A DNA stretch of 64,000 nucleotides from Gemmatimonas sp. (GTDB taxonomy: Bacteria > Gemmatimonadota > Gemmatimonadetes > Gemmatimonadales > Gemmatimonadaceae). The notes under the pieces were generated by a model. The model saw only the letters and a list, made by a program, of their open reading frames with translations, did no database searches and was not told the origin of the DNA. Of this stretch, positions 3,747 through 51,054 are shown in pieces (within the stretch, counting starts at the first letter, position 1; every line of letters begins with the position of its first letter). The position numbers and the translations under genes are program-made. The stretch spans positions 124,001-188,000 of the forward strand of contig NZ_JAJTHI010000010.1 in the NCBI RefSeq assembly GCF_021298855.1. The letters run 5' to 3'.

Positions 3747-4325
3747 ATGCCCGCGCTGATCGTGGCCTTCGACGGCGTTCTTGCCGACACCCTCCTGTTG
3801 CGGGCGCATGTGCTCGCCGACGCCGCGGCGGCCGAGTTCCAGCCGCGATCAATGGCGGCGGCGCTCGCCGTGCTTCCGGGGCGCACACTGCTGGAAGCCG
3901 CGCTGGCGCTGTTCGCAGACGAGACCGAGCGGGATCCCACACTTCCCGAACTCGTCGCCCTGCGTGCGCAACGGGGGTACCGCCAGCTCGTGACGCACGG
4001 CGTTCCGGTGCACCCGGCGGTTGTGGATGAAATGGAGGCCGCGGGGCGACGGGGCGACCGCGTCGTGGTACGGGCGGACAGCGAACGGCGCGACGTGGAG
4101 CCGCTGCTCGCGCTGCTTGGGCTCGACCACACGCTGGCCTTCCTTCGCTGCAGTGATGACCGGCCACACGGAGCCGCCGCGTCACTCGTACGGAGTTGGC
4201 AGGCCATTGATGGGCGTCTGAACGGACTGCGCCAGCCGCCCTCCGAGCGAGTCGCGTGGGAACCGCATGGGGTGACCACGACCGCCGTGGCCGGCGAGTT
4301 TGCGGCGCGCGTACGCGCCTTCTGA
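3747..4325 (+). CDS. HAD-superfamily-like protein lacking the catalytic nucleophile
   Basis: This 192-residue protein has the shape of a small HAD phosphatase with a helical cap (residues about 15-85). The normal motif I, DxDGxLxDT, reads VAFDGVLADT: the acid/base Asp9 is present, but the position of the phosphoryl-accepting nucleophile is Ala7 (codon GCC, one base from GAC). Later elements resemble motif II (VVRADSE) and the acidic motif near CSDD. As read, the enzyme could not form the aspartyl-phosphate intermediate. It may be a binding or regulatory protein, a degenerating gene, or the base may be a sequencing error. An in-frame GTG at 3723 is possible, but ATG at 3747 fits the family N-terminus. 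It sits between the peptidase and ygfZ on the same strand. Confidence 0.7.
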   Translation: MPALIVAFDGVLADTLLLRAHVLADAAAAEFQPRSMAAALAVLPGRTLLEAALALFADETERDPTLPELVALRAQRGYRQLVTHGVPVHPAVVDEMEAAGRRGDRVVVRADSERRDVEPLLALLGLDHTLAFLRCSDDRPHGAAASLVRSWQAIDGRLNGLRQPPSERVAWEPHGVTTTAVAGEFAARVRAF

Positions 4326-4455: not shown

Positions 4456-5559
4456 GTGAGCGATCCGTCCGTGAACCCTGCTGCCGCGACGACCGGCCTG
4501 CCGAACGGCGTGGAGTCACCATCCGTGGTGTACCCGGAACCGCTGAGCCGCGACGACGTCGAGGCGTATCACGACTTGCGGCGCGATGCGGCCTGGTTCG
4601 AGGCGCTGCACCACTGGAGCAGTATCGAAGGGCCGAAGGCCATGGAGGCGTTGAACGGCCTGATTACGAACGACGTGAGCGAACTGGCCGTGGGGAAGGG
4701 CCTGCACGCGGTGGCGCTGACGCCGAAGGGAAAGGTGGTGTGTGACATGTACGTGGTGCGCACCGCGGCCGACCGCTTCCTGCTCACGGTACTCGGGCCG
4801 AGCGCTCCGGCGTGGCTCGAGCTGGCGCGCAAGTACATCAATCCCCGGTTGGCCAAGGTGACCGACGAGTCGGACCAGTGGGCCACCTACATGCTGTATG
4901 GGGCGCGGGCGGCCGCTGCCGTGGCGGATCTGGGGGGCGGACCACCCGGTGCCGCGCCGCTCGGCGACGTCATGGGTGGCACACTCGACGAATGGCCCGT
5001 CTGGTCGCATGGCCTGTGGAACATCGGGCCGGCATCCGTGCGGCTCATTCGCGCTCCGGTCCTGGGTTCGCTGCCCGGCTTCGTCATCGTCGCCGATGCG
5101 CGCGACGCCGAGGTGGTGCGCGATCGGTTGCTGGCGTCCACGAAACGCCACGCCTCGCATGCAGTCTGGAACGTGGCGCGCATCGAGGGCGGACGTCCGG
5201 CATTCGGGGTTGATATGGACGAGCACACCATCCCGCAGGAAGCGAATCTCGACACCCTGGGCGCAATTTCCTTCACCAAAGGGTGCTACACCGGGCAGGA
5301 GACGGTGGCCCGGGTGCATTTCCGTGGCCACGTGAACCGCCACCTGCGTGGCCTGCGCGCGGACCAGCCGCTCCCGCAGTTTGCCCGGGTGTACGATGCC
5401 AACGGCAAGGATGTCGGCGATGTGCGCAGCTCGGTGCTGTCCCCGCGTCTTGGCCCGATCGCCCTGGCCATGATTCGCCGGGAGGTGGCGCCGGGAGACA
5501 CGGTGCGAGTGCACGACGGGATCACCGCCGCCGTCGAGGCGCTCCCCTTCCCCGAGTGA
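4456..5559 (+). CDS. ygfZ: YgfZ/GcvT-like folate-binding protein (Fe-S cluster maintenance)
   Basis: YgfZ proteins bind tetrahydrofolate and support repair or assembly of certain Fe-S enzymes. The 367-residue product has the family signature KGCYTGQE (here FTKGCYTGQETVARV) containing the conserved cysteine, in a GcvT-like three-domain fold. The GTG start at 4456 is chosen because AAGGAG stands 4 nt upstream; a longer in-frame opening to 4300 has no such site and adds unrelated sequence. The gene is probably monocistronic, ending just before a terminator shared with the convergent lipoprotein gene. The function is inferred from the family. Confidence 0.9.
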   Translation: MSDPSVNPAAATTGLPNGVESPSVVYPEPLSRDDVEAYHDLRRDAAWFEALHHWSSIEGPKAMEALNGLITNDVSELAVGKGLHAVALTPKGKVVCDMYVVRTAADRFLLTVLGPSAPAWLELARKYINPRLAKVTDESDQWATYMLYGARAAAAVADLGGGPPGAAPLGDVMGGTLDEWPVWSHGLWNIGPASVRLIRAPVLGSLPGFVIVADARDAEVVRDRLLASTKRHASHAVWNVARIEGGRPAFGVDMDEHTIPQEANLDTLGAISFTKGCYTGQETVARVHFRGHVNRHLRGLRADQPLPQFARVYDANGKDVGDVRSSVLSPRLGPIALAMIRREVAPGDTVRVHDGITAAVEALPFPE

Positions 5560-30228: not shown

Positions 30229-31650
30229 ATGCCCGTTCCCATTGTCGTACTGGTCTTCGCTGTGGTTGCCGCCGGGTTCGCCTCGACGTGGCGCAGCCTC
30301 TTCGTCGCATGGACCGACTTCTACTCGCACGGCTTCCTCGTCGCCCCGTACGGCTTCTGGCTAGCCTGGTCGAGACGGCATGAAGTGCCGTCGCCCGCCC
30401 GCCCGTGGTTCGCCATCGTGGGCGTGGCGCTCGTCCTGTCGCTGGGCTGGTTGCTTGGCCGGATTGCGTTACTGCAGATCGTTCACCAGACCATGCTGCC
30501 GCTCATCCTGGCGAGCTGGGCGCTGGCGGTGTTCGGGCGTGGGGCACTACCGGTGGTGGCCGCGGCCACGGTCATGCTGCTCCTCGCCGTTCCGCTGCTC
30601 ACGGCGTTCGTGCCGCTCCTGCAGTCGGTCACGGTATCGGCGAATGCCGCCCTGTTGGCCGTCTCTGGACTCAAGGCCGAAATCACGGGCACCTTCATTC
30701 GTATCCCGGAAGGGTTGTTCGAGGTGGCCGACGGCTGCGCCGGTTCCGCCTTCTTTGCCGCCGGCATCAGTCTGGCCGCCATGTATGTGAGCCTGATGCG
30801 CACCTCCCGGCAGGCCGCTGTCGTGGTCGTCCTGTCGGCCGTGGTCCTGTCGCTGGTGACGAACTGGCTCCGCGTGTTCGGACTCATCCTCGTGGGGCAC
30901 TGGACCAACATGCAGCACCCCCTGATCAACGACCACGGCTGGTACGGCTGGGTGATCTTCGCCGCGGTACAGCCCCTGTGGTTGTGGATCTCCGCCAAAG
31001 CCGAGAAGCGCTGGCCCCACGCGCCACACGAGATCGGCGGCGAGTCGCCGCTCAGCGGCGTGGACTGGCGGGTGGTGGCTGGCGCATCGCTCGCCTGCCT
31101 GACGGGTCCGGCGCTGGCCTTGGCCCTGCAGGCCAGGCCGCGTGCGGCAGCGCCGGCAACACTGCCGGATCTGGCGGCCATTTCGCTGTCGGACGCGCCG
31201 GCTCTCGTGCAGCCCGGCCAGTGGACGCCCAGCGCAATCGCGGGGCAGCAACACCTGCAGGCGATCGTGCGCAACGGCCCCACCGCCGTGCAAGTCGACC
31301 GGGTGATCTTCTCGAATCAGCAGCAGGGCGCCGAACTCGTTGGTACCGATCGCCATCTTGGCGACAGCGTGGAGGTGCTGACCGACGAGGTCACCGCGTT
31401 CTCCACGACTCCGGTGCGACTTGTTCGTCAGGCCATCGTGCGGTACAAAGGCGGGGTCCGCCTGGTGTGGTATTGGTACCGGGTGGCCGGGGTCGGCACC
31501 ACGCAATCGATGAAGGCCAAGCTGCTCGAGATTCCTGCGGGGATCATCGGCAGCTCCCCGTCGGAGTTCGTTGCCGTCAGCACCCCGTGTGGCCCGCGGG
31601 ATTGCGCCGATGCGGCGCGCGCGTTGCGGGCGGTGCTCACACGGCCGTGA
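30229..31650 (+). CDS. xrtA: Exosortase (XrtA type) fused to an EpsI-like domain
   Basis: Exosortases are membrane transpeptidase-like enzymes that process PEP-CTERM proteins and are encoded in exopolysaccharide loci. Residues 1-260 carry about eight helices with the conserved DFYSHGFLVAPYG start and the catalytic triad: Cys170 (EVADGCAGSAFF), Arg215 (TNWLRVFG) and His236 (NDHGWYGW). Residues about 270-473 are the periplasmic EpsI/DUF3485-type domain (VQPGQWTPSAIAG ... VRLVWYWYRVAG), typical of the exosortase A-EpsI fusion. The 147-nt upstream region shows no clear promoter or ribosome-binding site. It overlaps the convergent glycosyltransferase gene by 14 nt. No PEP-CTERM protein is in the window. 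Confidence 0.88.
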   Translation: MPVPIVVLVFAVVAAGFASTWRSLFVAWTDFYSHGFLVAPYGFWLAWSRRHEVPSPARPWFAIVGVALVLSLGWLLGRIALLQIVHQTMLPLILASWALAVFGRGALPVVAAATVMLLLAVPLLTAFVPLLQSVTVSANAALLAVSGLKAEITGTFIRIPEGLFEVADGCAGSAFFAAGISLAAMYVSLMRTSRQAAVVVVLSAVVLSLVTNWLRVFGLILVGHWTNMQHPLINDHGWYGWVIFAAVQPLWLWISAKAEKRWPHAPHEIGGESPLSGVDWRVVAGASLACLTGPALALALQARPRAAAPATLPDLAAISLSDAPALVQPGQWTPSAIAGQQHLQAIVRNGPTAVQVDRVIFSNQQQGAELVGTDRHLGDSVEVLTDEVTAFSTTPVRLVRQAIVRYKGGVRLVWYWYRVAGVGTTQSMKAKLLEIPAGIIGSSPSEFVAVSTPCGPRDCADAARALRAVLTRP

Positions 31651-39895: not shown

Positions 39896-41721
39896 GCGGT
39901 ACGCCGGATTGCGGCCGGCCACGGCAGCGCGGTATCGGTGAGCGCCACGCCGAAGCACATGGTGTCGGTCGTGGGCATCGCCGGCTCCGGCTCGAACCCC
40001 AGCGCGGGGTACAGGTCGGCCACCACGCTGTTCCGCGGCCCCGGCACGTATTCGCCCAGCAGTCGCGTGCATCCCCACTGGCGAGCGACCTCCGCGGCAA
40101 ACGACAGGAATGCGTGCTCGGCACGGCGATTCATGACCCGGCAGCTCATGACCAGCACCTCGATGCGCGCCGTCTCCCCATGACGCGCAAGGACGGCGGC
40201 CGCGATGATGCCGTGGTCACCGAAGCGATCGGCCAGTCGCATGTGCAGCACGCGGTGGGTATCCGGCGTGGACATCCACTCCGTCACCTGCGCCTCGGAC
40301 GGGCGGCGCAGCGTGAGGTTGAACTGATTGGTCTTGGCGATCAGCTGTGCGACCCGTTGCCGTTCGAGCGCCGAGGTGGCCATCGCCTGTGCCGTCAGCT
40401 CGAGCGATCCGAGATACTCCTCGACGGTGGCGTAGGCACCCGCCACTGTCTGCCGTTGGCGCTCTTCCGCGTACTGACTGGCCCGACGCAGGTCCTCGGC
40501 CGAGGCGGCCAACTGGTCGAACCACGGTGCGGCAGCGAGTGCGCGCGGCAACGATCCCCACGGCTCGACATCGATCACGCGCACCGCCGGGAGCATCGAC
40601 TGCACTTCCGCCCGCTCCACCGGGTTGTCATCGAGAAACACGAGCGCATCGAGTCCGAGGCCCAACTGCTCAGCCATCCGCGCGAGGCCGGCGGACTTCG
40701 GCTCCCAGCTCACCGCGTGGGCCGCGAAGTCGTCCCATCGCAGGAGGAATTCGGGGTGTCGCGCGAAGGCATCGCGCACGACCTCCTCATCGTTCTTGCT
40801 CGCGATGGCGAGCAGCACACCGCGGTCGCGCAATCCGCGGGCGTGACGTTGCACCGCCTTGAACACGTTGCCCGGATAGTCGTCGCCCACCTTGAGTGCC
40901 TCGACGCCATCGTCGCCGACCACGCCGCCCCAGAGCGTGTTGTCGAGATCGAGTACCAGCACCTTGGCCGACGGCTGCACGGCCGCGCGAATCGTGCGCG
41001 CCAGATGCTGCGCCGCTGCAGGGTGGTGGATCGCCGCCACGGGTATGCGTCCGAGAAACCACAGGCGATCATCGCGCCAGACGCCGGCGCCGTGCGCCGC
41101 CACCAGACCAGCGTAATCCCAGACGTAGGCGCCACCGACCGCCGATACGGCTTCCCGCAGCGAATGATTCGCGTACGCGACCGCTTCCTGGCGTGAGGCG
41201 GCGACGGAGGCGTCACCCACGCCGAATGGCGACGCGGCGACGGGGGCGAAATTGGCCACCAGCGTCGTCCATCGGCCCGCGGTCCCGGCGCCGTCTCCGG
41301 CCCGTGCCTGCAGCAGTGCGGAGAGGCGCTGGACCAATGCGTCGAAGGACGAGCGCAACGTGGCCCCGGTGGCATCGGCTACCCGAATCGCGGCGTCGGG
41401 GCTCATGTCCTCGAGCCGCACCGCCACCACCACGACATCAGGCTGGAAGGCATGCAGCGCACTCGACTCGTCCAGCCACAGCGACTCGACCTCGCCGTAT
41501 CCGCCAATGAACAGATCCACGTCGAGACCGAGCCGGCCGAGTTCGACCCGCAGGAACGGCTCGATGAAGCCGAACGTGAACGAGGCGAGCAGGGCCACGC
41601 GCAAGGGGCGCGTGCCACCGCGCACCTTGAGCTCGCGAGCCAGGCGATGGTATGCGGAGGCGTCGGTGAACGGGGGGCCGTGGCGCAGCGATGCCGCTTC
41701 GCCGGGCGCGTGATCAGGCAC
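39892..41721 (-). CDS. FkbH-like HAD-IIIC protein with C-terminal GNAT-like domain (glyceryl-ACP type)
   Basis: FkbH proteins dephosphorylate 1,3-bisphosphoglycerate and load the glyceryl group onto an ACP. The 609-residue protein has an N-terminal SGNH-like region (about residues 40-240), the HAD nucleophile motif VLVLDLDNTLWGGVVGDDG (near residue 258), SKNDEEVV, LDDNPVERAEV, and a C-terminal acyltransferase-like part with MSCRVMNRRAEHAFL (conserved in this family). The partner ACP gene overlaps it by 8 nt directly upstream. This points to a glyceryl (or similar hydroxyacyl) decoration of the polysaccharide. The product is inferred from the family. Confidence 0.87.
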   Translation of the reverse strand: MPDHAPGEAASLRHGPPFTDASAYHRLARELKVRGGTRPLRVALLASFTFGFIEPFLRVELGRLGLDVDLFIGGYGEVESLWLDESSALHAFQPDVVVVAVRLEDMSPDAAIRVADATGATLRSSFDALVQRLSALLQARAGDGAGTAGRWTTLVANFAPVAASPFGVGDASVAASRQEAVAYANHSLREAVSAVGGAYVWDYAGLVAAHGAGVWRDDRLWFLGRIPVAAIHHPAAAQHLARTIRAAVQPSAKVLVLDLDNTLWGGVVGDDGVEALKVGDDYPGNVFKAVQRHARGLRDRGVLLAIASKNDEEVVRDAFARHPEFLLRWDDFAAHAVSWEPKSAGLARMAEQLGLGLDALVFLDDNPVERAEVQSMLPAVRVIDVEPWGSLPRALAAAPWFDQLAASAEDLRRASQYAEERQRQTVAGAYATVEEYLGSLELTAQAMATSALERQRVAQLIAKTNQFNLTLRRPSEAQVTEWMSTPDTHRVLHMRLADRFGDHGIIAAAVLARHGETARIEVLVMSCRVMNRRAEHAFLSFAAEVARQWGCTRLLGEYVPGPRNSVVADLYPALGFEPEPAMPTTDTMCFGVALTDTALPWPAAIRRTA

Positions 41722-41953
41722 GGGCCGCTACGACCCGCTGCACCACCGCGCCCACGGTACGCAGTTCCATCAGCTCGTCGGGTTCGAACTGCACACCGCA
41801 CGCGCCTTCGATGGCCAGCATGAGATTGATGTGCGTGAGCGAGTCCCACGACGGAATCGTGTCGGGAGACGCGTCATCGGAAAGCTGTTCGGCAGGGACA
41901 CCGAGCACACTGGTGAATACCGCGCGAACCTGGAGGGCCGTGCTCTCGCTCAT
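41714..41953 (-). CDS. Acyl carrier protein
   Basis: This 79-residue, acidic, helical protein has the phosphopantetheine attachment motif DSLTHINL (Ser in D-S-L) in a PP-binding domain. Its placement just before the FkbH-like gene (8-nt overlap) marks it as the dedicated carrier for the glyceryl or acyl group. It needs modification by a phosphopantetheinyl transferase; one is encoded at 15371-16159. It is an intact ordinary ACP, not a fatty-acid synthase ACP by context. Confidence 0.88.
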   Translation of the reverse strand: MSESTALQVRAVFTSVLGVPAEQLSDDASPDTIPSWDSLTHINLMLAIEGACGVQFEPDELMELRTVGAVVQRVVAARA

Positions 41954-48326: not shown

Positions 48327-48350
48327 TGAGATGACGGCGTAGGGATCTGG

Positions 48351-48366
48351 CGCAACAATCGTGCTA
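48351..48366 (-). promoter_or_regulatory. Sigma-54-like -24/-12 promoter for the Wzc-EPS operon
   Basis: Read on the minus strand, TAGCACGATTGTTGCG matches TGGCACG-N4-TTGC with correct spacing; only one of the two -24 guanines differs (AG for GG). The predicted start is near 48340, about 14 nt before the kinase ATG at 48326. The nearest upstream regulator gene encodes a GAFTGA-containing sigma-54 activator. Confidence 0.55.
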
Positions 48367-48508
48367 ATGACGGCTCATGAATCTCGTCCGCAACACGGTG
48401 CTGCGTAAGCGCACGGGTAGCGCAGCGCTGAGGCAACAATTGCGTGACGTTTTGCCCAGTGTTGCAGTCACGACACGAAGACTGTTGAGGAAAAGCCACG
48501 GAAATGCA

Positions 48509-48537
48509 TTGACGCGCGACGCGCGTCACCGTATTTC
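48509..48537 (+). promoter_or_regulatory. Sigma-70-like promoter toward the response-regulator gene
   Basis: TTGACG (48509-48514), 17-nt spacer, TATTTC (48532-48537). The leader to ATG 48713 would be about 170 nt. The palindrome covers most of the -35 box and spacer. Confidence 0.4.
48510..48528. promoter_or_regulatory. Perfect 19-bp palindrome, candidate operator/enhancer site
   Basis: TGACGCGCGACGCGCGTCA is a perfect inverted repeat of 9-bp arms around a single A. It lies about 170 bp upstream of the predicted sigma-54 start of the EPS operon (normal enhancer distance) and over the regulator's own sigma-70-like promoter. Binding by the regulator encoded next door is inferred. Confidence 0.5.
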
Positions 48538-48712
48538 GCAGGCGTTGGCGCTCGCGAATACATGGACGGGCGCCACAGGTAGTCGCTGTATAGTAGTAAG
48601 GGCGCGACGTCATGTGTCGTACTGCTGCACCACTGTTCAAGCCACCAGCGGCGGCCCCAGCCATTGAGACCGCGCGCGACCTCGGTGACGGATGTAATCG
48701 ATACCCTACGCA

Positions 48713-50206
48713 ATGACCGATCCATTTCTCCCTGACTCCGGCGCTGCCGTCATTCCAGACAAAGGAACCGGTCTGCGCATTCTCGTGGTCGACGATGACC
48801 GTACGCTACGGGAAGGGTGTGTCTCCGTGTTGCAGATGGACGGACACAGCGTCGTCAGCACCGGGCGCGGTGACGAAGCCCTCGACTTCGTCCGGCGCCG
48901 TCGGTTCGACCTCGTTCTCGTGGACCTCTTCCTGAACAATGTCTCGGGAATGGAGGTCCTGAAGGCGGCCGTGGAGGCGCACAAGGGGATCATCGTGGTG
49001 GTGATGACCGGCAATCCGTCGGTACAGTCGAGTATCGAGGCGTTGCGAGCCGGTGCGTGGGATTATCTGCCCAAGCCGTTTTCGGCCAGCCACCTGCAGG
49101 TGCTGGTTGGCCGGGCCGCCCATGCGGCAGCCGCCACGCGCGAAACACGGGAGAGTATCAAACCCTCCGCCCTGATGACGCAGAACGGCGCGGGCGAGTC
49201 GATGGAACTTCTCGGCATCTCCCCCACCTTCCGCAAGGCCGTCGAACTGGCGCAGAAAGTCGCGGCCACCGATGCCAGCGTGATGATCAGCGGCGAGAGC
49301 GGTACCGGCAAGGAAATGATCGCGCAGTTCATTCACAAGCACAGCCGCCGCACGCAGCGCAAGCTGGTACCCGTGAACTGCGCGGCCCTGCCGGACAATC
49401 TTCTCGAGTCCGAGATGTTCGGATACCGCAAGGGCGCCTTCACGGGGGCCGATCGCGACAAGGCCGGACTGCTCGAAGTCGCCAACGGGGGTACGCTCTT
49501 CCTCGACGAACTCACCGAGATGACCATGCCGCTGCAGGCCAAGCTGTTGCGGGTGCTGCAGGATGGGGTCGTGCGTCGCCTTGGCAGCGAAACACAGGAT
49601 GCCGTGGTCGACGTGCGTTTCATCAGCGCCACCAATCGCGATCCGCAGGAGAGCGTCCAACAGGGACTCCTGCGCGAGGACCTGTTCTATCGGCTGCGCG
49701 TGGTGCCCATCAAGTTGCCGCCCCTGCGCAAGCGGCTGGAGGACATCCCGCTGCTGGCCGACTTCTTCCTCAAGCGATCCTGGGAGCGCCACCGCGCCAG
49801 CGGGGCGCCGGCGCCGGTGTTCGAGGCGGAGACCATCGCCTTCCTGCAATCGCGTCCGTGGCGGGGCAATGTGCGTGAGTTGCAGAACGTCATCGAGCAT
49901 CTCGCGGTGATTGCGGATGCGGGACGCAGCATCACGCCCGACGACATTCCGGTCTACGACGACCGCGCCGCGGAAGAGACGATGGAGCCGGGCCTCCCGA
50001 CCGGGATCATGAACGAGGCCTTCCATATCGCCAAGGACAACCTCATCACCCACTTCGAGAGGGAGTACCTGCTGCGTCTGACGACGCGCGCCGGCGGCAA
50101 CATGTCGAAGGCCGCGCGGCTCGCCGGCATCGATCGGACCACGCTCTATCGCCTGATGGAGAAGCACGGCTTCAAGCGTGATGCGCTCTCCGGTACCCAC
50201 GAGTGA
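48713..50206 (+). CDS. Sigma-54-dependent response regulator (NtrC/PrsR-like)
   Basis: The 497-residue activator has a receiver domain (residues about 20-140, acidic VVDDD, phospho-acceptor Asp71, Lys in LPKPF), a sigma-54 AAA+ domain (Walker A GESGTGKE, GAFTGA loop in GYRKGAFTGAD, Walker B-type GGTLFLDELTEM), and a Fis-type HTH at the C-terminus (AARLAGIDRTTLYRLMEKHG). It is complete. Location beside an XrtA-type EPS operon parallels the PrsR regulators of exosortase systems. It should act at the -24/-12 element upstream of the kinase gene. The histidine kinase gene overlaps its stop by 4 nt. Confidence 0.93.
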   Translation: MTDPFLPDSGAAVIPDKGTGLRILVVDDDRTLREGCVSVLQMDGHSVVSTGRGDEALDFVRRRRFDLVLVDLFLNNVSGMEVLKAAVEAHKGIIVVVMTGNPSVQSSIEALRAGAWDYLPKPFSASHLQVLVGRAAHAAAATRETRESIKPSALMTQNGAGESMELLGISPTFRKAVELAQKVAATDASVMISGESGTGKEMIAQFIHKHSRRTQRKLVPVNCAALPDNLLESEMFGYRKGAFTGADRDKAGLLEVANGGTLFLDELTEMTMPLQAKLLRVLQDGVVRRLGSETQDAVVDVRFISATNRDPQESVQQGLLREDLFYRLRVVPIKLPPLRKRLEDIPLLADFFLKRSWERHRASGAPAPVFEAETIAFLQSRPWRGNVRELQNVIEHLAVIADAGRSITPDDIPVYDDRAAEETMEPGLPTGIMNEAFHIAKDNLITHFEREYLLRLTTRAGGNMSKAARLAGIDRTTLYRLMEKHGFKRDALSGTHE

Positions 50207-51054
50207 CCTCTCGCCATCCCGCCGGCCTGCCTCCCGTACCACCACCGGCCCCCGCCGCCGCGTCCGTTCGTGAGGGCGCGGATGCAGACCTCGACACGAG
50301 CCCCGAAGCCGTCCACGCATTGATGGCGGCCGGCACCGCCGCCCTGCCATGGTCTCGCCGTGACGCCCCGCTCCCCGACGACAGCGATCATGATCTGCTG
50401 CTGCTCAGCCTGACGCACGATCTCAAGTCGCCGCTGGGTGGGCTCCTGCTCGCCCTCGATCAGCTGGATTCCGGCGTGGCGGGTCCGCTCACGCCAGCGC
50501 AGGAGCGCCTGTTGGGCCGCGCACGGAGTGCCGCGCACGGCATGGCGATTCTCATCGGCAGTACGGGAGAGGTGGCCGCACAGGGCCCGACGCTGGCCTC
50601 CGTCGATCGTGTCTTCTCGCTCCGCGACGTTCTCGAAGATGTACGGGCCGCCACGCGCCAGCTGATGGAAGACCGGCAGCTCTATCTGCGCGCGACCATC
50701 GACAGGGCGGATCACTGCCGAAGCAATCCGCTGATCTTTCACCGGGTCCTGCTCAATCTGGTCGTGAACGCCATCACGTTCACCGACGGGGGTGGCATCA
50801 CCATTACGGTGGGTGATGACGGCAACGGGACACTCGTCACCGAGGTCATCGATACGGGCGTCGGACTGTCGGGCAGCCGCGATCTGCGGAACCGTCCGCG
50901 CGAGGATCGCGGCATCCCCGTCATGCCCTCGGGGATCGGGTTGGGCATCTGTGTACGCCTCCTCGATCTGGTTGGCGGCACCCTGTCGCTCCGGGGCAAC
51001 GCCGGTGCCGGAACCACAGCGACCTTCCGTTTGCCGCTGCGCTGCATGTCCTAG
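50203..51054 (+). CDS. Soluble histidine kinase, partner of the response regulator
   Basis: The 283-residue protein has an H-box LSLTHDLKSPLGG (His72), N-box LLNLVVNAITFTDGG, G1 VIDTGVGLSG and G2 GIGLGICVRL. There is no membrane helix and no PAS/GAF domain; the first about 60 residues are Pro/Ala-rich and probably disordered. The input must come from another protein or a cytoplasmic signal. GTG 50203 overlaps the regulator stop (GTGA), so the two are co-translated. It is far shorter than PrsK of exosortase systems (about 680 residues with membrane and GAF parts). Confidence 0.87.
   Translation: MTSRHPAGLPPVPPPAPAAASVREGADADLDTSPEAVHALMAAGTAALPWSRRDAPLPDDSDHDLLLLSLTHDLKSPLGGLLLALDQLDSGVAGPLTPAQERLLGRARSAAHGMAILIGSTGEVAAQGPTLASVDRVFSLRDVLEDVRAATRQLMEDRQLYLRATIDRADHCRSNPLIFHRVLLNLVVNAITFTDGGGITITVGDDGNGTLVTEVIDTGVGLSGSRDLRNRPREDRGIPVMPSGIGLGICVRLLDLVGGTLSLRGNAGAGTTATFRLPLRCMS

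Follow-up and report, generated by a model that had tools for sequence, protein, structure and literature searches.

A Gemmatimonas-type genome of 4.1 Mb in 91 contigs (G000) contains a gap of 386 bp (positions 48327–48712) between an EPS operon, on the minus strand, and a response regulator and kinase, both on the plus strand, which raises the question of which DNA element in the gap links the regulator to the polysaccharide genes. A preliminary description of the locus had assigned this role to a perfect 19-bp palindrome, acting both as enhancer for the operon and as repressor site for the regulator's own gene in the manner of glnA-ntrC. The present analysis points instead to an enhancer and a sigma-54 regulon, both predicted, that would serve EPS and PEP-CTERM genes throughout the phylum, with the enhancer adjoining the palindrome and not located at it. 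Taken as a whole, the locus is best explained, and in our judgment likely explained, as a divergent control region in which the NtrC-type regulator acts via dyad sites to activate the EPS operon and a PEP-CTERM regulon.

All positions refer to the window, that is, the entire 64-kb (64,000-nucleotide) stretch of DNA that was analyzed. The matrices, shuffles, and cut-offs were devised for this analysis, and orthologues are not independent samples, so the p-values given below are optimistic.

The divergent locus and its gene products

30259–30984, plus strand: exosortase (PF09721), the sole exosortase match in the genome
36072–48326, minus strand: exosortase-A-type EPS operon of ten genes (NCBIfam)
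41714–41953: acyl-carrier-like ORF of 79 aa inside the EPS operon
48713–50206, plus strand: NtrC-type response regulator (79 orthologues compared)
50203–51054, plus strand: histidine kinase of 283 aa, overlapping the end of the regulator gene; HATPase_c above and HisKA below the cut-off

The ten-gene extent of the operon was confirmed, running from 48326 down to 36072 with the 79-aa acyl-carrier-like ORF counted in. Its products comprise a chain-length protein fused to a tyrosine kinase, an export protein, a sugar transferase, a ligase, two deacetylases, an ACP-like protein, FkbH, FemAB, and an amidotransferase. The FemAB protein (TIGR03019) and a deacetylase (TIGR03006) both score above their NCBIfam cut-offs, supporting the earlier designation of these genes as exosortase-type. 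An rpoN gene, on which the earlier sigma-54 proposal depended, was looked for and is present in the genome.

The regulator has the domain composition of a sigma-54 activator, as had been proposed: a receiver, an AAA+ domain with GAFTGA, and a Fis-type helix-turn-helix (Pfam). GAFTGA is found in 73 of the 79 regulator sequences, including that of the window, and the recognition helix is near-invariant among these orthologues. Throughout the phylum Gemmatimonadota, the EPS kinase and the regulator retain their divergent order, in 51 distinct gaps (the window counted, one duplicate contig removed). The kinase that follows the regulator is only 35–38% identical among genus members whose regulators are 85–91% identical, a fast divergence that looks as if its input had been altered repeatedly.

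Predicted enhancer and promoter elements in the gap

48350–48367, minus strand: predicted sigma-54 promoter of the EPS operon, TTAGCACGATTGTTGCGC; predicted transcription start about 48341
48420–48439, no strand: possible third, weaker dyad, GCGCAGCGCTGAGGCAACAA; 10.3 bits, p=0.07, with a GCnACA half-site conserved in the genus
48459–48478, no strand: predicted enhancer dyad A, GTGTTGCAGTCACGACACGA; 11.0 bits with the held-out matrix, conserved in the genus
48482–48501, no strand: predicted enhancer dyad B, CTGTTGAGGAAAAGCCACGG; 15.2 bits, the best site of the 64 kb
48509–48537, plus strand: predicted sigma-70 promoter of the regulator, TTGACG (48509–48514)-N17-TATTTC (48532–48537)
48510–48528, no strand: perfect 19-bp palindrome, TGACGCGCGACGCGCGTCA, over the -35 and spacer of the regulator's sigma-70 promoter

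Comparison of the orthologous gaps establishes statistically both a conserved dyad and its tandem form. The most enriched hexamer, GCAACA, occurs in 39 of the 51 gaps against 12 expected, and expectation maximization on 41 gaps yields the dyad YTGTTGC-N6-GCAACAR with a log-likelihood of 201, compared with 37–54 in shuffles. The dyad matrix was trained on these 41 non-Gemmatimonas gaps only, with the window held out. Dyads A and B form a tandem of TGTTGC-N6-GCAACA sites 23 bp apart, whose joint score of 26.2 bits lies above all 1000 shuffles (p<0.001); many orthologues carry two or three copies spaced 21–24 bp. Scored singly under a matrix derived from PEP-CTERM regions alone, the window dyads reach p=0.05–0.15. 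Distances from dyad to -12 element fall on one helix face (period 10.9 bp, R=0.78, p=0.0012, with distances chosen by rule and each distance counted once for the p-value). Dyad A lies 116 bp from the -12 element, in phase, and dyad B 139 bp, about 55 degrees off. A predicted enhancer at a suitable distance, as envisaged in the preliminary description, is thus present, but at 48459–48501, 10–50 bp from the palindrome; that description missed the conserved tandem dyads, which adjoin the palindrome and do not coincide with it.

A further conserved element, CGCAACACGGTGCTGCG (48389–48405, no strand), has the form CGCAACAC-n-GTGnTGCG, with GCAACA half-sites facing inwards, opposite to those of the enhancer dyad. 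A minus-strand CCGTC, likewise conserved, lies about 16 bp away, and the GCAAC of the element is kept in 18 of the 18 genus rows listed. A near-copy of a conserved block, TGTTGCAGTCACGACACG, at C31:188739 was rejected as it falls within a coding region.

On the regulator side, the genus alignment keeps TTGAC and TATTTC while the 17-bp spacer varies freely; selection therefore maintains a sigma-70 promoter. Sigma-70 sites facing the regulator are also enriched over the 51 loci (p=2e-6), and the suggestion of a sigma-70-like promoter driving the regulator is borne out by the conservation of TTGACG-N17-TATTTC in the genus. Dyad centers cluster 16–17, 38–40, and 57–63 bp upstream of the start of the -35 hexamer in orthologues, the window's lying at 17 and 40 bp. 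The tandem enhancer ends 7 bp before the hexamer, abutting it without overlap, and this geometry recurs in the majority of orthologues whose promoter is strong. At four distant loci (L032, L033, L055, and L073), a dyad overlaps a candidate -35.

On the operon side, the -24/-12 element, TAGCACGATTGTTGCG, lies where it had been placed, on the minus strand at 48366–48351. It reads AG-N10-GC as opposed to the usual GG at -24 and GC at -12, 10 bp apart, with A replacing the first G; in the PEP-CTERM gene pair L150 versus L152, TAGCACG likewise stands in place of TGGCACG. Scored with a matrix from distant orthologues, the element reaches 6.1 bits (p=0.27), and with one from genus PEP-CTERM promoters 12.6 bits (p=0.01 within the gap), where it is the top match on both strands of the 64-kb window. 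A sigma-54 promoter for the EPS operon is accordingly plausible under the genus matrix. The element is unusually near the start, at 24 bp, and within the genus it is recognizable only in its own species and in G015, the nearest relative; a convincing sigma-54 site near the EPS kinase start was absent from the other 16 of the 18 genus orthologues scanned, and two matrices found no element common to the rest of the genus. Among distant orthologues, sigma-54 sites facing the EPS kinase are enriched (p=1e-11), typically 46–120 bp from its start. As read from these comparisons, either the EPS sigma-54 promoter of other genus members has drifted past recognition or its control has been rewired. Searching with a strict pattern, TGG[CT]N[CT]N5TTGC, left most sites undetected and was abandoned.

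PEP-CTERM genes and the predicted regulon

Recurrence of the dyad at PEP-CTERM genes is likewise established by the sequence statistics. For these genes, start codons were reassigned according to the signal-peptide stretch, since taking the longest frame was misleading. The matrix derived from the EPS gaps exceeds 12 bits upstream of 50% of 32 genus PEP-CTERM genes, compared with 2.2% of shuffles (p=3e-10), and upstream of 41% of 22 order-level genes, compared with 1.3% of shuffles (p=2e-5). PEP-CTERM upstream regions analyzed alone from random seeds return the same dyad (log-likelihood 157 versus 36–48 in seeded shuffles), and those of the genus yield de novo the sigma-54 motif tGGcAcg-N4-tTGC. 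The genome under study contains five PEP-CTERM genes, all with a sigma-54 site 43–60 bp before the start. Their dyads score 19.1 bits at C83, 16.7 bits at C31:212194, 11.4 bits at C71, and a weak 8.3 bits at C31:214388; upstream of the gene on C10, the promoter is present and no dyad was found. This C10 gene (L124; start 3353, minus strand) carries a strong sigma-54 site, TGGAACGGGTTTTGCA, and is perhaps driven by another activator.

A tandem model was built from 16 loci, with the window gap in the training set and the C21 and C83 loci outside it. Across the whole genome at E<10, it matched only the window gap, as its first match, C21:4321, which precedes a Polysacc_synt_2 gene, and C83:9166, which precedes a PEP-CTERM gene; the resulting regulon list is non-exhaustive. 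The C21 gene (L127:4705–6723) encodes a polysaccharide-synthesis epimerase/dehydratase; before it lie tandem dyads at 4321 and 4343, a weaker dyad at 4457 and, at 4565, a sigma-54-like site, CCGGCACGGTCGTTGCCG. Scanning the genome with a simple dyad pattern gave a count below its own control and was uninformative apart from the tandem at C21.

Together, these features suggest that the exosortase-type EPS operon and the PEP-CTERM regulon are probably under sigma-54-dependent activation by the NtrC-type regulator. The sigma-70 promoter at 48509–48537 would produce the regulator, which the adjacent kinase presumably phosphorylates; the phosphorylated protein would bind the tandem dyads at 48459–48501, contact sigma-54 polymerase about 116–139 bp away at 48350–48367, and thereby switch on the EPS operon. 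Elsewhere in the genome, a polysaccharide gene and PEP-CTERM genes are likewise preceded by a dyad paired with a sigma-54 site, so that production of the polymer would be coupled to that of the PEP-CTERM surface proteins. We infer the identity of the binder, its phosphorylation, the direction of control, and the use of the window's -24/-12 element from this arrangement. A broader proposal, which we advance tentatively and with slightly more doubt than conviction, is that Gemmatimonadota possess an operator code of their own, TGTTGC-N6-GCAACA, that together with sigma-54 co-regulates EPS and PEP-CTERM genes, the EPS promoter having been rewired in the genus while the enhancer was kept.

Alternative explanations and related systems

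The palindrome, TGACGCGCGACGCGCGTCA, is exactly where it had been described and, going by the alignment, is mostly the spacer of the conserved sigma-70 promoter TTGACG-N17-TATTTC. It is only mildly unusual, because perfect dyads with arms of at least 9 and a loop of 0–2 arise in 1.1% of shuffles of the 386-bp gap and the window contains two perfect 19-bp odd palindromes. That figure and its location over the -35 and spacer could favor a shared operator that, as in glnA-ntrC, enhances the operon and represses the regulator, and G015, whose regulator is 95% identical, retains 7 of the 9 pairs. However, the perfect form is specific to this species, L002 (regulator 91% identical) keeps 5 of 9, the alignment reveals no recognizable palindrome at that spot in more distant genus members although the promoter persists, and the sequence scores about -27 bits as a site of the conserved operator. 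It also lies 166.5 bp from the -12 element, roughly 115 degrees out of helical phase, and a genome-wide search for copies returned a single exact one, the window's own. Near matches, itself included, did not exceed a reversed-pattern control, which for a palindromic pattern is nearly identical to the query. An operator or enhancer role for the palindrome thus finds no support, and the shared-operator explanation appears very improbable. In glnA-ntrC (glnALG), NtrC-type sites are situated between a sigma-54 target and the sigma-70 promoter of the regulator, which they overlap; the dyads here occupy a similar intermediate position but end before reaching the regulator promoter, and transcription of the regulator is divergent. 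With centers 17 and 40 bp upstream of the -35 start, no overlap of activator site and regulator promoter was found, and since the enhancer ends before the hexamer, as in most strong-promoter orthologues, a single site activating the operon and repressing the regulator gene is not supported. The predicted geometry allows an effect of either sign on the regulator's own gene. Alternatively, the palindrome could be a young, lineage-specific operator for a different repressor of the regulator gene, in view of its position and of G015, where 7 of 9 pairs are kept and one is changed on both sides; the absence of a second exact copy from the genome and its mild statistical surprise make this improbable, if less so than a shared operator.

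Doubts of another kind concern the operon promoter and the protein that binds the dyads. The dyads may be genuine while the EPS operon of this genome uses a promoter other than the -24/-12 element, the sigma-54 link of the genus lying mainly at PEP-CTERM genes; the broken GG, the very short leader, the p-value of 0.27 with the distant-orthologue matrix, and the absence of the element from 16 of 18 genus orthologues scanned all agree with this. Yet the element is the best sigma-54 match in the window under the genus matrix and stands directly before the operon, with dyad A at an in-phase distance; distant orthologues retain strong sites at the EPS kinase gene, and sigma-70 promoters facing that kinase are not enriched (p=0.35). 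We therefore rate this explanation as unlikely, though the most serious of those considered. As for the binder, the genome encodes about ten activators of the regulator's class. The adjacent regulator scores 369.7 bits against PrsR (TIGR02915; cut-off 502.6) and is the fourth-best match, three other proteins outscoring it and none passing the cut-off, so that one of these activators might occupy the dyads. Set against this, 51 loci have the dyads next to the regulator gene, and the recognition helix of the protein hardly varies. Because about nine other activators exist, assignment of the dyad to the adjacent regulator relies on this conserved neighborhood and helix; binding by another activator seems improbable, a little less so than a separate repressor at the palindrome.

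The preferred reading, activation of EPS and PEP-CTERM genes by the adjacent regulator through tandem dyads, has partial counterparts elsewhere. Aquincola tertiaricarbonis is a betaproteobacterium with a PEP-CTERM gene, pepA, that is under RpoN, as is predicted for those considered here, and differs in its betaproteobacterial host and proteobacterial-type enhancer. This pepA needs RpoN, a prsK-prsR pair lies in the floc-formation cluster, and the enhancer was described as the previously predicted proteobacterial one (PMC9850573). PrsK/PrsR (TIGR02915/TIGR02916) is the PEP-CTERM regulatory system of Proteobacteria, and the 2006 study found its motifs in Proteobacteria only (Haft et al. 2006, PMC1569441). 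In both systems, an NtrC-type regulator is encoded next to a kinase and to EPS genes of the exosortase type, and PEP-CTERM genes are preceded by an activator motif and by a sigma-54 promoter lying some tens of bp from their start. They differ in the operator (TGTTGC-N6-GCAACA, found de novo, versus a 17-nt motif 1 ending in TTTACA), in the regulator (370 bits versus a cut-off of 503), and in the kinase, which here is short and not PrsK (HATPase_c and a weak HisKA alone in Pfam; 31.8 bits against TIGR02916, cut-off 300). The phylum also differs, and here the EPS operon itself has an enhancer. The Gemmatimonas system may thus work like proteobacterial PrsK/PrsR, which it resembles without belonging to it by the features compared. 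In Desulfovibrio vulgaris, the response regulator DVUA0057 is encoded among EPS genes and its DAP-chip targets include predicted PEP-CTERM genes (PMC3333781). It is comparable as an EPS-gene-encoded regulator tied to PEP-CTERM genes, but is plasmid-borne, belongs to another phylum, and was reported without a validated binding motif (PMC3333781).

These elements would provide a testable cis-code for when Gemmatimonadota, a widespread and little-studied phylum of soil and freshwater, make extracellular matrix, and would extend sigma-54 control of PEP-CTERM proteins beyond Proteobacteria. In the literature searched, mostly outside subscription journals, Gemmatimonas and PEP-CTERM are named together in one paper, which leaves such regulation aside, and no paper linking Gemmatimonadota with sigma-54 was found. 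The orthologous loci also form a natural promoter series for comparing enhancer distance, helical phase, and promoter loss. Across 30 genus genomes, PEP-CTERM genes number 0 to 30 per genome, both zeros being incomplete assemblies. At the genus loci L130–L158 and L169–L180, the -12 half of the PEP-CTERM sigma-54 site is relaxed (TTGC, TTGA, ATGA, or GTGC), and the -24 half stays near TGGCACG.
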